Assembly (NCBI GenBank): GCA_025454155.1
Contig: JALOOZ010000007.1
Coordinates: forward strand, 1 to 48,055
Direction of reading: 5' to 3'
Source: Thermodesulfobacteriota bacterium
GTDB taxonomy: Bacteria > Desulfobacterota > Desulfomonilia > UBA1062
DNA length: 48,055 bases
The translations under genes and the position numbers were made by a program. Of this stretch, positions 38,858 to 44,286 are shown one piece after another (the stretch's first letter is position 1; the number at the start of each line of letters is the position of its first letter). Under the pieces are notes generated by a model. That model was not told the DNA's origin. It was given only the letters and a program-made list of their open reading frames with translations, and ran no database searches.

Positions 38858-39358
38858 ATGAAACAGTGGTTCGTGGTACAGACAAATCCCAAGGAGGAAC
38901 ACCTGGCCTCCCTTGTCCTTACCCAGAACGGCATCCCCATCTATCAGCCGTTCATGGAGAAATTCGTGTTTCATGCCAGGAAGAAGACGCTGAAGCGCTA
39001 CCCCCTCTTCCCCAATTACCTCTTCGTGCACATCCCTCCCGTCGAGGAGGAATTCCACAAGATCCGATGGAGCAGGGGCGTTCGGAGGATCCTCATCGAC
39101 AACTACCAGCCCATCCCCATAGAGGACGAGTTCATCACCTCCCTGCAGACTCTCCAGGACAGTCAGAGCGGCGTCATCAAGAAGCCCGTTGAGTTCGAGC
39201 CAGGGGACACGGTACGGATCAAGTCGGGCCCTCTGAAGGATCTCGTCGGGATCTTCGAGGCATGGGGCTCGGATGAAGGCAGGGTGAAGATCCTGATCCA
39301 GATGGTCAACAACCGGGCCAAGGTGGTCATGCACCCCTCCCTCATCGAAAAGGCATGA
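38858..39358 (+). CDS. NusG/RfaH-like transcription antitermination paralog
   Basis: WFVVQTNPKEEHLASLVLTQNGIPIYQPFMEK...RYPLFPNYLFVHI...GDTVRIKSGPLKDLVGIFEAW (NGN + KOW). Confidence 0.88.
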   Translation: MKQWFVVQTNPKEEHLASLVLTQNGIPIYQPFMEKFVFHARKKTLKRYPLFPNYLFVHIPPVEEEFHKIRWSRGVRRILIDNYQPIPIEDEFITSLQTLQDSQSGVIKKPVEFEPGDTVRIKSGPLKDLVGIFEAWGSDEGRVKILIQMVNNRAKVVMHPSLIEKA

Positions 39359-39375
39359 TCCCTTAGGAGGGGCCT

Positions 39376-41001
39376 ATCCAGAAGATCTACGGCAATGGAA
39401 AGACCCTGAAGGCCTCCGATGCCAAGGCCATCGAGCGGCTCTATCGGAGGCGCGTTCCCTTCAATGCCGTCATCTCCCACGAGCTCTGCACGGAGCTGGC
39501 CCGCATATCGGTTGAAGCCGGCATCCAGATCGGCCTGCTCGTCAACCGTCTCGGCGGAGTTGAATACGTGCTCGCCGGCAGCGCCTCGGGCATCTCCATC
39601 CCTGAGTTGAACCGCATGAGGACCCATCCCGGCAGACTCCAGGGACTGAGGCTGATCCACACGCACTTCAAGGACGGACGTCTCACCTTCGAGGACCTCA
39701 CCGACCTTGCCAAGCTCCGCCTCGATATGGTCTACGCCATAGAGGTGCTGGAGGACGGCAGCCCCGGCCTGGCATACGGTGCCCACCTCCTCCCCGCCGA
39801 GGAGGGCGGAACCCTGTGGAAGGTTCTCGACCCGGTGCCCACCTACCGCATCGACATACCCTTCGATGCCTTCATCGAGGCCCTGGAGGGGGAGATCACG
39901 AAGAGGCAGACCCTCCTCGTCCCGGGGGCCCATGCGGACCGGGCCATCCTCGTAGTGGTCTCATCATCGGGCGGGGACATGCTCAAGGATGTCATCGACG
40001 AATTCCAGTCCCTTGCAAAGGCCGCAGAGGTCACGGTGGTGGACACCGTCGTGCAGAAGAGACCGAAGCCGGACCCCCGGTATGTCATCGGCAAGGGCAA
40101 GGTGGCGGACATCTATCTCAGGGCTCTGGCCAAGGACGCCAACCTGCTCGTCTTCGACCATGAGCTCACACCCTCGCAGGCCCGCTCCATCGCCGAGATC
40201 GCGGATATGCGGGTCATCGACCGCACCCAGCTCATCCTCGACATCTTCGCACGCAGGGCCAGGACCAGGGAGGGGAAGATCCAGGTGGAGCTCGCACAGC
40301 TCAGGTACAACATGTCCCGGCTCGTGGGCAAGAACCCCTCTCTGAGCAGGCTGGCAGGAGGCATCGGCACCAGGGGTCCTGGTGAAACCAAGCTCGAGGT
40401 AGACCGTCGTCGCGCCAAGGAGCGAATGGAGCGCCTCGAACGTGAGAACTCCCGGATCAGCCTCAAGAGAAGGATCACCAGGGCCCGCAGGGAAAGGCAG
40501 GGACTGCCCGTGATCTCCATCATCGGCTACACCAACACCGGCAAGTCAACCCTGCTCAATGCCCTGACCAGGAGCAGCGTGCTCACGGCGGACATGCCCT
40601 TCGCCACCCTGGACCCTTCCAGCAAACGACTGCGGTTCCCTAAGGACATCGAGGTTATCATCACCGATACGGTTGGATTTATCCGTGACCTGCCGAAGGA
40701 TCTCCGGGCAGCCTTCATGGCGACACTGGAGGAACTCGAGGACGCCCATCTCCTCCTGGAGGTCATCGACCTCACCGATCCCCACATCGACTACCGCATC
40801 CAGGCCGTGGAAGAGATCCTCAAAGGGCTGAACCTCCAGGACAAGCCGCGCCTGAAGGTATTCAACAAGGCCGACCGGGTCCATAGAAGCACTGCCCGCT
40901 CGTGGGCCGAACGCCATGACGGGGTGATCATTTCGGCCCTGGACAGGGCAACATTGAGAGCACTTATCGAGCGGATGCAGGGATACTTCCTGAAGGTGTA
41001 G
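39376..41001 (+). CDS. hflX: Ribosome-associated GTPase HflX; apparent ATC initiation codon
   Basis: GPGETKLEVDRRRAKERMERLE, IIGYTNTGKSTLLNAL, ITDTVGFIRDLP; N-terminal IYGNGKTLKASDAKAIERLYRRRVPFNAVIS upstream of the GTG (39568) used in ORF track; SD AGGAGG at 39365-39370. Confidence 0.92.
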   Translation: MQKIYGNGKTLKASDAKAIERLYRRRVPFNAVISHELCTELARISVEAGIQIGLLVNRLGGVEYVLAGSASGISIPELNRMRTHPGRLQGLRLIHTHFKDGRLTFEDLTDLAKLRLDMVYAIEVLEDGSPGLAYGAHLLPAEEGGTLWKVLDPVPTYRIDIPFDAFIEALEGEITKRQTLLVPGAHADRAILVVVSSSGGDMLKDVIDEFQSLAKAAEVTVVDTVVQKRPKPDPRYVIGKGKVADIYLRALAKDANLLVFDHELTPSQARSIAEIADMRVIDRTQLILDIFARRARTREGKIQVELAQLRYNMSRLVGKNPSLSRLAGGIGTRGPGETKLEVDRRRAKERMERLERENSRISLKRRITRARRERQGLPVISIIGYTNTGKSTLLNALTRSSVLTADMPFATLDPSSKRLRFPKDIEVIITDTVGFIRDLPKDLRAAFMATLEELEDAHLLLEVIDLTDPHIDYRIQAVEEILKGLNLQDKPRLKVFNKADRVHRSTARSWAERHDGVIISALDRATLRALIERMQGYFLKV

Positions 41002-41004
41002 GCT

Positions 41005-44000
41005 CTACTTCTTCTCGCCGCCCATGAACCGCAGAGAATCGTCGAAGAGCTTTCCGGGAAGCTTCAGCGATCTCAGGAGAGATGAAGCAACCGTGCCGGA
41101 CAATGTTTCAACGGGCGCTACCCTGACCTTCGGATCATCCAGGGTTCCTCCGACATTCATGCTGATGACGATGAATTTTCCGTTATCCCCCGTAAGCACC
41201 CAGCCAACCAGAGGTATCATGCTGATGGTCTTGTCCACGGTCTCCAGGGGTTGCACGCCGATGACGGCATCGATCTTCCTGGTGTCCATGAAATACTTGC
41301 CGACCGCCGAAATCTGGATTGAATTGCTGTCGAGCAGGAAGTCGTCGTAGCTGATTGTGTTGTCCCTGATCGTGAACGTGCAGTTGATGCGGTTGTAGGT
41401 GAAGTGCCTGCTCAGGAATTCCGTATCCTGATGCTGGTAGATCTTGTAGACGTTCAGCAGGGAGAAGATCTGGGAGACGAGAGCATACTTCCTTATCTCT
41501 CCGTCTGTTGCGTTGATGGTAAGGTTGCCGTTGAAGGTGTCAGAACTGCCCCAGACGCGGCCTTCGAGATCCAGCGCGCCATCGATGCCAGGGGTGCGGT
41601 TCGACGCCTTGAGTATCTTCCTGAGATCCGAATCCCGCAGTGAAACCACCAGGTCGAAGGAAGTTTTTCCCTCCAGCGAAAGACTCGCAGTCCCCTTCAC
41701 CGTACCCGAAACTGTTTCCATGACTATGTGGTCCAGCTTCAGCTCCCCTGCCTCCAGGGCGGCCTCGGCCGTGGCGTTCTCCACTGGCAGCCCGTAGATG
41801 ACACACTGAACAAGGCGGAGCCTGGCATCGGCCCGGAGATCCTTGATGCCCCCGAGCTTCCTGTCTTTCCCATCCATGGTCATGCCCTCAACAGTGATCA
41901 TCCCTTTGAAGTGGGGCTGCTCACCAATGGTGAGTTCACCGCTTAGGGTGGACCGGACATCTCCTATTCTGACCTTCAGGGCATTCATCGCGATCAGGGA
42001 CGGTCTGACGACCAGATCTCCATTCATGGTCATCACGTCATCGGACAAGGGCAGCGCAGCATCCTGCAGGGAGATGATTCCGGAAGCGGATACCTTGTCG
42101 CCCCAGGAGAGAGAGAGGTTGCCGTCCGCGGCGCCGCTCAAGGCTTTCGTGGCCGTCGGGCTCTGTATGGTCATGTCCTTCAGGTCCACCCTGCCGGAAA
42201 GTTCCGCCGAACCGTCGCCCCCCCTAATGTCAGCCTTCCCCTCCAGCCTGCTCGAGGTGGTGCGGATCACCAGTGAGCCGAAAGATATGGATGAGGGGCT
42301 CCCCAGCCTCGCCGTGAATTCTCCCTGTGCAGTAACTGCCTTTGCCCTGTAACTCTGATCGCCTCTTTCAAGGGCCATCCCCGGGGCGTTCAGCTCCATG
42401 GTGCCACTGAGGACATGGCCTCTGCCCTTGCCCGAAATCTTCAGAAAGGCGTCTTCAAGGGTGAACTTCCCCAGAGGGGGCAGACGGTCGGCGAGGAGGG
42501 TGAACGTGGAGATGCTTTCACCAAACGGAGCCATGATGCTCGCGTTCAGTCTCCTGATGCGGGTGTTGTCAACCGACCCGCTGAGGGCTATGACCTGCGG
42601 CTTTGAAAAGCCCTCTGAGTGATAGGTTCCGGACACGTTCGTCATCGCGTGCCTTTTCCATTGGAATGAACACCCGTCAAGCCGGAGATCTCCTTGGAGC
42701 ATCAACCGGTTCTTGAGCTCCTCGTCATAGACCGTCCTTACCCGTCCCTTGATATGGCCCGCCTTCACCCTGGATACAGGCTCCAGGAGTCTGAGGACTT
42801 CCCCGGGAACCATGGCGGCCCGCCAGACCCGCAAGAAATCAGGTGCAGGCATGTCCACGTCGACATCAACACCCACTCGCATAAGGGGCTTCATCGCTCG
42901 AGGGAACACGATATCCACCCGGGTGAGGCGGGAACTGCCCATCATGCCTGTCAAATTCATGAACCGGATATCTCCCGTGCCATACATGACCTGTCCGGTA
43001 ATGCCCGTAAGGCGCTCGGGTACATGCCCTGCACCGAAGCTCTGGCCCTTCAGTTCCTGGACCACATGGAGGTTGTCCAGAAGATCAACGCCCGAGATGA
43101 AACCCTTGAGGGGGCCATGGTATTGCGCAGTGGAGAACCGGGATCTTCCGCTCCTTATCTGTTGAGAGAGGAGTGTCCTGAGCCATCCGGGGAACTTCTC
43201 CAACGGGAGGAGGGATACGACCTCCTCATAGTCGAACTCCCTGGAGGACAACTCCAGATTGAGCCTGGTGTTCTGCCACGATGCCATATCAGTGAACCCG
43301 CTGATATCCGCTCTTCCCGAGACATCGAGAAACGGGGTCTTCAAGACGATGTCGTTGATCCTCATGGTGTTTCTCTCACCGGTGAGGGATGCGGACGCAC
43401 TCAGTCTGTCGATGGTGCCTTGCACCCAGGGGTAGCTCAAACCCTTGACCTGGAGCGAGAAAGATCCCGACTGACCGTCTCTCGTGTCCTCAACGGAGAT
43501 ATTCGCATGGGCAGTTCCCTTGAGCCTTCCATCCAATTGGTCGAGCTGGATGGCATAGGCATCAAAAGTGAGCTTTCCCGGTCTCTCCAGATCGGTCTCC
43601 AAAAGCACCCTGCCCCCGAGGGTACGGGCCCTGAGGTTTGCCCAGTCACTGGTGATGCGGCCGCTCACATCCGCCAGCGAGATATCCTCGCCCCGGTAAA
43701 TGAGCTTCAGCGAACCTTTCCAGATCACTATCGCGGGCCTTTTACCCTCGCTGTCACGTGCCTTGAGGTTCTTCAAGTTGTCGAGATCCACCGTCCCGGT
43801 CGGCATGATAAGCCGCACCTTCCTGACGCCAACATCCCCGAAGATGATAAGCCGCACCTTCCTGACGCCAACATCCCCGAAGAAGAGCTTCCACAGGGAA
43901 AGATACGCCGTAATACTCCTTATATGGAGGGTTATGACGCCGGGCTGGTCGATGTCCACCTTCGACAGGATGACCCGTGGACCGCTTTTCCATTCGAATC

Positions 44001-44175
44001 TCGCCTTCTCTATGGTAACGGGCACGCCGAGATTCTTCTGCAGCTGGTTCTGGACTGTTGCTGTCACCTTCTCGGGGGACTTGGAGACGAGGTACAAGAG
44101 GGAAATGGACCCTCCCGCCACGAAGGCGATGACGACAAGCAGGGTAAGTATGAGTACTTTGAAGGACTTCTTCAT
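41005..44175 (-). CDS. Large AsmA-like/DUF3971-type inner-membrane-anchored protein
   Basis: 1056 aa, N-terminal TM FKVLILTLLVVIAFVAGGSISLLYLVS, long beta-rich repeats, C-terminal VIGVQPLETVDKTISMIPLVGWVLTGDNGKFIVISMNVGGTLDDPKVRVAPVET. Confidence 0.8.
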   Translation of the reverse strand: MKKSFKVLILTLLVVIAFVAGGSISLLYLVSKSPEKVTATVQNQLQKNLGVPVTIEKARFEWKSGPRVILSKVDIDQPGVITLHIRSITAYLSLWKLFFGDVGVRKVRLIIFGDVGVRKVRLIMPTGTVDLDNLKNLKARDSEGKRPAIVIWKGSLKLIYRGEDISLADVSGRITSDWANLRARTLGGRVLLETDLERPGKLTFDAYAIQLDQLDGRLKGTAHANISVEDTRDGQSGSFSLQVKGLSYPWVQGTIDRLSASASLTGERNTMRINDIVLKTPFLDVSGRADISGFTDMASWQNTRLNLELSSREFDYEEVVSLLPLEKFPGWLRTLLSQQIRSGRSRFSTAQYHGPLKGFISGVDLLDNLHVVQELKGQSFGAGHVPERLTGITGQVMYGTGDIRFMNLTGMMGSSRLTRVDIVFPRAMKPLMRVGVDVDVDMPAPDFLRVWRAAMVPGEVLRLLEPVSRVKAGHIKGRVRTVYDEELKNRLMLQGDLRLDGCSFQWKRHAMTNVSGTYHSEGFSKPQVIALSGSVDNTRIRRLNASIMAPFGESISTFTLLADRLPPLGKFTLEDAFLKISGKGRGHVLSGTMELNAPGMALERGDQSYRAKAVTAQGEFTARLGSPSSISFGSLVIRTTSSRLEGKADIRGGDGSAELSGRVDLKDMTIQSPTATKALSGAADGNLSLSWGDKVSASGIISLQDAALPLSDDVMTMNGDLVVRPSLIAMNALKVRIGDVRSTLSGELTIGEQPHFKGMITVEGMTMDGKDRKLGGIKDLRADARLRLVQCVIYGLPVENATAEAALEAGELKLDHIVMETVSGTVKGTASLSLEGKTSFDLVVSLRDSDLRKILKASNRTPGIDGALDLEGRVWGSSDTFNGNLTINATDGEIRKYALVSQIFSLLNVYKIYQHQDTEFLSRHFTYNRINCTFTIRDNTISYDDFLLDSNSIQISAVGKYFMDTRKIDAVIGVQPLETVDKTISMIPLVGWVLTGDNGKFIVISMNVGGTLDDPKVRVAPVETLSGTVASSLLRSLKLPGKLFDDSLRFMGGEKK
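43805..43882. repeat. Perfect 2 x 39-bp tandem duplication inside the AsmA-like gene
   Basis: ATGATAAGCCGCACCTTCCTGACGCCAACATCCCCGAAG at 43805-43843 and 43844-43882, identical; in-frame (13 aa). Confidence 0.98.
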
Positions 44176-44257
44176 GGGGTTGTCTCTCCCATTAATACAC
44201 AGCAGCTTCGAATTGCAAGCGTTCTCGATGGGAACCCGCAGCTTGAGAGTCCAATCC

Positions 44258-44286
44258 TTGACGGGTTTTCATGAAAATGTTACACT
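44258..44286 (+). promoter_or_regulatory. sigma70-like promoter of serS
   Basis: TTGACG-N17-TACACT; -10 box ends 6 nt before ATG 44293. Confidence 0.75.

Follow-up and report, generated by a model that had tools for sequence, protein, structure and literature searches.

An AUA, AUC or AUU start codon of hflX conserved in Desulfobacterota and its possible control by IF3

The hflX locus

The stretch of DNA analysed here (the window, 48,055 nucleotides) carries on its forward strand an rfaH/nusG-like gene (38858..39358) that begins with ATG and lies directly 5' of hflX. Its product matches TIGR01955 at 1.1e-27, which is below the cut-off of that model, and PF02357 at 9.5e-17. The gene ends with TGA at 39356-39358, and an in-frame TAG read at 39364-39366 closes the hflX frame upstream. 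The TAG is followed by GAG GGG CCT, then by ATC at 39376-39378, 17 nt downstream of the TGA, and then by CAG AAG ATC TAC GGC AAT. The Shine-Dalgarno (SD) motif AGGAGG at 39365-39370 stands 5 nt before the ATC, and a strong SD is found at the equivalent place in relatives. Between the TAG and the conserved HflX N-terminus the window has no canonical start codon, where canonical denotes ATG, GTG and TTG, and AUH denotes AUA, AUC and AUU (H being A, C or U). The first in-frame canonical codon, GTG at 39568-39570, comes 64 codons past the ATC and is an internal Val codon (codon 65) if translation starts at ATC. With ATC as the initiation codon, the hflX open reading frame spans 39376..41001 on the same strand and comprises 541 codons plus the stop. 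The original prediction, made from these letters, was that hflX starts at this non-canonical ATC; its coordinates for the TAG, the SD, the ATC and the GTG all turned out to be correct on re-reading.

An rfaH-like gene lies directly 5' of hflX in 23 of 23 sampled genomes of the window's family. This suggests a conserved rfaH-like/hflX operon, and the two genes are probably co-transcribed in the window. Judging from the gene arrangement, translational coupling between them is possible.

The product is identified as HflX by its profile match to TIGR03156 (1.9e-129, 431.6 bits against an equivalog cut-off of 216.75). Its domains are PF13167 (GTP-bdg_N) at residues 206-292, PF16360 at residues 294-372 and the PF01926 GTPase (MMR_HSR1) at residues 380-498. 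The N-terminal, middle and GTPase domains are preceded by an N-terminal extension of ~185 residues (39376-39930). No Pfam domain and no solved-structure match was obtained for residues 1-185, and the PDB matches begin near residue 187. Matches to the solved E. coli HflX cover its chain residues 10-325 of 426. As the window protein extends only a little beyond its GTPase domain, it appears to lack the C-terminal domain of E. coli HflX.

The hflX gene of E. coli K-12 (L272:3173) is annotated with a TTG start. The E. coli protein is without the ~185-residue extension, whereas the window HflX has both the extension and the ATC. Given the TTG of E. coli, a tendency to weak initiation may be more widespread among hflX genes. 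A long-form HflX of Fusobacterium, the single informative case in the plasmid collection, starts with ATG, in contrast to the ATC of the window.

Initiation codon and its conservation

All sampled genomes belong to Desulfobacterota, and the loci came from a genome search and from short stretches of many families. In the window's family, 23 hflX 5' ends from several genera were aligned. At the place of ATC 39376, 12 of them have ATA, 6 have ATC and 5 have ATT, and none (0/23) has ATG, GTG or TTG. An SD lies a few bases 5' of the aligned codon. None of the 23 has a canonical start at a usable place upstream; in one genome (L025) a TTG is located 14 codons upstream, before the SD. An assembly or sequencing error that changed ATG to ATC might be suspected, as the window's assembly is fragmented (249 contigs). 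This explanation has a negligible chance of being right: AUH occupies the same place in 22 other assemblies of the family, which refutes it, and in dozens outside the family.

The AUH codon is close to being proven as the initiator of hflX by comparative sequence evidence. Codons 2-64 (39379..39567), which lie 5' of any canonical start in the window, are under purifying selection, with dN of ~0.01-0.37 against dS of ~0.2-1.9, similar to codons 65-160. Residues 4-6, 9 and 11-14 are strongly conserved, G6, K12 and A13 being near invariant. Since this selected stretch precedes the first ATG, GTG or TTG by 64 codons in the window, translation is almost certainly initiated at AUH. It is very improbable that translation instead begins farther downstream, at GTG 39568 or at some other canonical codon, leaving the upstream part untranslated. 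That GTG is the first canonical codon acceptable to a gene caller, but the dN/dS of codons 2-64 resembles that of the rest of hflX, the near-invariant residues would fall in untranslated DNA, and HflX homologs with an ATG start begin exactly at the position aligned with the AUH codon. Moreover, the distance from AUH to the first downstream canonical codon varies among AUH loci from 3 to 87 codons. The GTG was rejected as the start because of the purifying selection on codons 2-64.

Production of HflX by readthrough or frameshifting from the rfaH-like gene, or from an upstream start joined in frame, would be in keeping with the closeness of the rfaH-like stop to hflX in the family. Nevertheless, the window has an in-frame stop 3 codons before AUH, about half of the AUH loci have one 1-9 codons before it, and the codons 5' of AUH are SD-like without conservation at the protein level. 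On these grounds readthrough was rejected, and we judge such an origin of HflX to be extremely improbable.

Across the phylum, 159 hflX starts were scored, and 95 of them are AUH, 62 canonical and 2 ACG. Five AUH loci (L028, L129, L176, L266 and L088) had been called canonical by the script owing to a nearby codon; they were corrected manually, the AUH codon with an SD being taken as the start. At the level of families, 38 of 58 have AUH throughout, 19 have canonical starts throughout, and one has ACG or ATG. The non-canonical start of hflX is thus strongly supported, with AUH in 23/23 members of the window's family and as the sole state in most families. The expectation that homologs carry Met at this position is borne out in Desulfobacterales and several further families, which have ATG there, and fails for the window's family and most sampled families. 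In family f2 hflX starts with TTG or GTG.

The single mixed family, f15, is split between a genus with ACG and one with ATG. In two of its genomes (L027 and L091) hflX apparently starts with ACG, preceded by the SD AGAGG and then ~7 nt, and in the relative L139 this position is occupied by ATG.

Changes of the start codon were counted on a tree of 85 HflX proteins from which the N-terminus was excluded. The start class (canonical or not) requires only 3 changes on this tree and the codon itself 17. Within the window's family there are at least 8 third-base changes, all among ATA, ATC and ATT and none to ATG. The AUH codon stays one step from ATG, which is never reached, and this suggests selection against AUG, although the sign argument taken alone is modest, ~(2/3)^8.

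The SD upstream of the AUH codon is very strong. Its median duplex energy is -10.0 kcal/mol at AUH hflX loci (n=90) vs. -3.5 kcal/mol at canonical hflX loci (n=30; Mann-Whitney p ~1e-12), and it reaches -6 kcal/mol or better at 93% of the 90 AUH loci. Among controls with canonical starts the medians are -9.8 for frr and 0.3 for obg, so SD strength is gene-dependent in the sampled genomes, and the telling contrast is the one between AUH and canonical loci within hflX.

infC and possible control by IF3

In 30 genomes, most of them with AUH hflX, the start is canonical for frr in 30/30 and for obg in 29/29. The rfaH-like gene has a canonical start in 23/23 genomes of the window's family; in L006, L008 and L024 this is a canonical codon a few codons before the aligned residue. 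A genome-wide habit of AUH starts was therefore rejected. The genome of the window also possesses infC, found at G000:C223 (L093) with 232.7 bits and an ATA start after GGGGAGGGTCGC, and an IF3 that is missing or altered was rejected as far as its presence goes.

The infC gene (loci L092-L121 and L182-L256) has an AUH start, mostly ATA, and a strong SD in nearly all sampled genomes and families. The exceptions are ATG in f2, GTG or TTG in f30, f65 and f93, and apparently CTG in f38, f71 and one genome of f91. The GTG call for f65 is a close one, with an ATA three codons on at nearly equal SD energy. In f2, f30, f65 and f93 both infC and hflX are canonical. Counted by family, with f3 left out as its infC start is ambiguous, infC/hflX starts are canonical/canonical in 4, canonical/AUH in 0, non-canonical/canonical in 12 and non-canonical/non-canonical in 33 (Fisher p=0.0086, an association that rests on perhaps two or three events, because the HflX tree places f30 and f65 in one group). 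The 12 families with AUH infC and canonical hflX indicate that the coupling is not obligatory.

The textbook case of an AUH start is infC, which begins with AUU in E. coli and with ATC in Streptomyces. The pcnB gene of E. coli has an AUU start that is sensitive to IF3. To our knowledge, only a handful of bacterial genes that start with AUH or another non-canonical codon have been characterised.

Unless the codon is AUG, GUG or UUG, 30S complexes are destabilised by IF3, and infC is thereby autoregulated (PMC5472188). Streptomyces sigR, with a GTC start, is repressed by IF3, and infC starts are given as ATT or ATC (PMC5472188). Mutants of infC with impaired fidelity derepress non-canonical starts 3- to 15-fold (PMC5472188). 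HflX splits stalled 70S ribosomes under stress, and IF3 is an anti-association factor (PMC9067457).

The hflX gene resembles infC in having a long-conserved AUH start after a strong SD, in belonging to the translation-factor genes and in sharing the same genomes. They differ in that infC is under autogenous control, its product being IF3, whereas the controller proposed by analogy for hflX is the product of another gene. Like sigR of Streptomyces, hflX is a gene other than infC whose non-canonical start is conserved and preceded by an extended SD. Unlike hflX, sigR has a codon of the GTC class, is confined to one genus and encodes a sigma factor; its repression by IF3 was shown experimentally. 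E. coli pcnB likewise has an AUH start outside infC, yet its product is not a ribosome-splitting factor.

Because an AUH start is the known trick by which IF3 throttles infC, IF3 may control HflX too. We infer such repression, as well as its physiological purpose, from the codon and its parallels. In the proposed mechanism, hflX would be initiated at ATC 39376 with formyl-Met on the strong SD. Since IF3 destabilises 30S initiation complexes formed on codons of the AUH class, an abundance of IF3 over 30S subunits would keep translation of hflX low, and a shortage of IF3 would raise it. The synthesis of HflX would then be tied to IF3 shortage, and splitting would be balanced against anti-association capacity, since HflX splits 70S ribosomes and IF3 prevents reassociation of the 30S subunits thus released. 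As it is IF3, not HflX, that does the discriminating, hflX would be cross-regulated by IF3 rather than autoregulated, and any feedback by HflX on its own gene would be indirect. The original prediction had likened hflX to infC and considered it possibly autoregulated. The likeness is supported by the anatomy of the two genes, which combine AUH with a strong SD in the same genomes and are both canonical in four families. Autoregulation gives way to putative control by IF3.

A different possibility is that hflX does start at AUH and the codon simply holds HflX at a constant low level, with compensation from the strong SD and from coupling to the rfaH-like gene, and with IF3 varying too little to matter. 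Weak starts do seem to suit hflX (TTG in E. coli, TTG or GTG in f2), the rfaH-like stop is located 17 nt before the ATC, and a strong SD together with a weak codon could set a fixed rate by themselves. However, GTG or TTG would suffice for that purpose and should be found mixed with AUH inside families, and 0 of the 23 family members have one; AUH has been kept through at least 8 third-base changes, and the SD is very strong, not weak. We regard a fixed rate as rather unlikely. In our view, hflX probably joins infC as a second phylum-wide AUH gene, with IF3 throttling its translation as in infC, pcnB and sigR. More tentatively, the same start-codon discrimination might co-regulate splitting and anti-association capacity in an IF3-HflX homeostatic circuit across most of the phylum, with HflX surging when excess 30S or stress titrates IF3.

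No prior report of a non-canonical or AUU start of hflX was found among the titles and abstracts searched, in which subscription journals are thinly covered. Control of this type is known already, and what appears to be new is the gene and how widely its start is conserved. If true, a second gene with a conserved AUH start (in 38 of 58 families) would make discrimination by IF3 a wider regulatory channel and would join initiation fidelity to ribosome rescue.

Gene annotation and other open reading frames of the window

Gene callers limited to ATG, GTG and TTG would truncate HflX in much of the phylum, and by 64 residues in the window. The open reading frames of the window were scanned for conservation 5' of their first canonical codon. 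The stretch in hflX proved to be the longest by far, with 67 residues of open frame; the scan is noisy, since overlapping genes give such signals too. On the minus strand, ~31 residues of open frame at 44176-44268, 5' of the ATG of a large open reading frame (41005-44175), are conserved in relatives, which may reflect a promoter between divergent genes or another upstream start.
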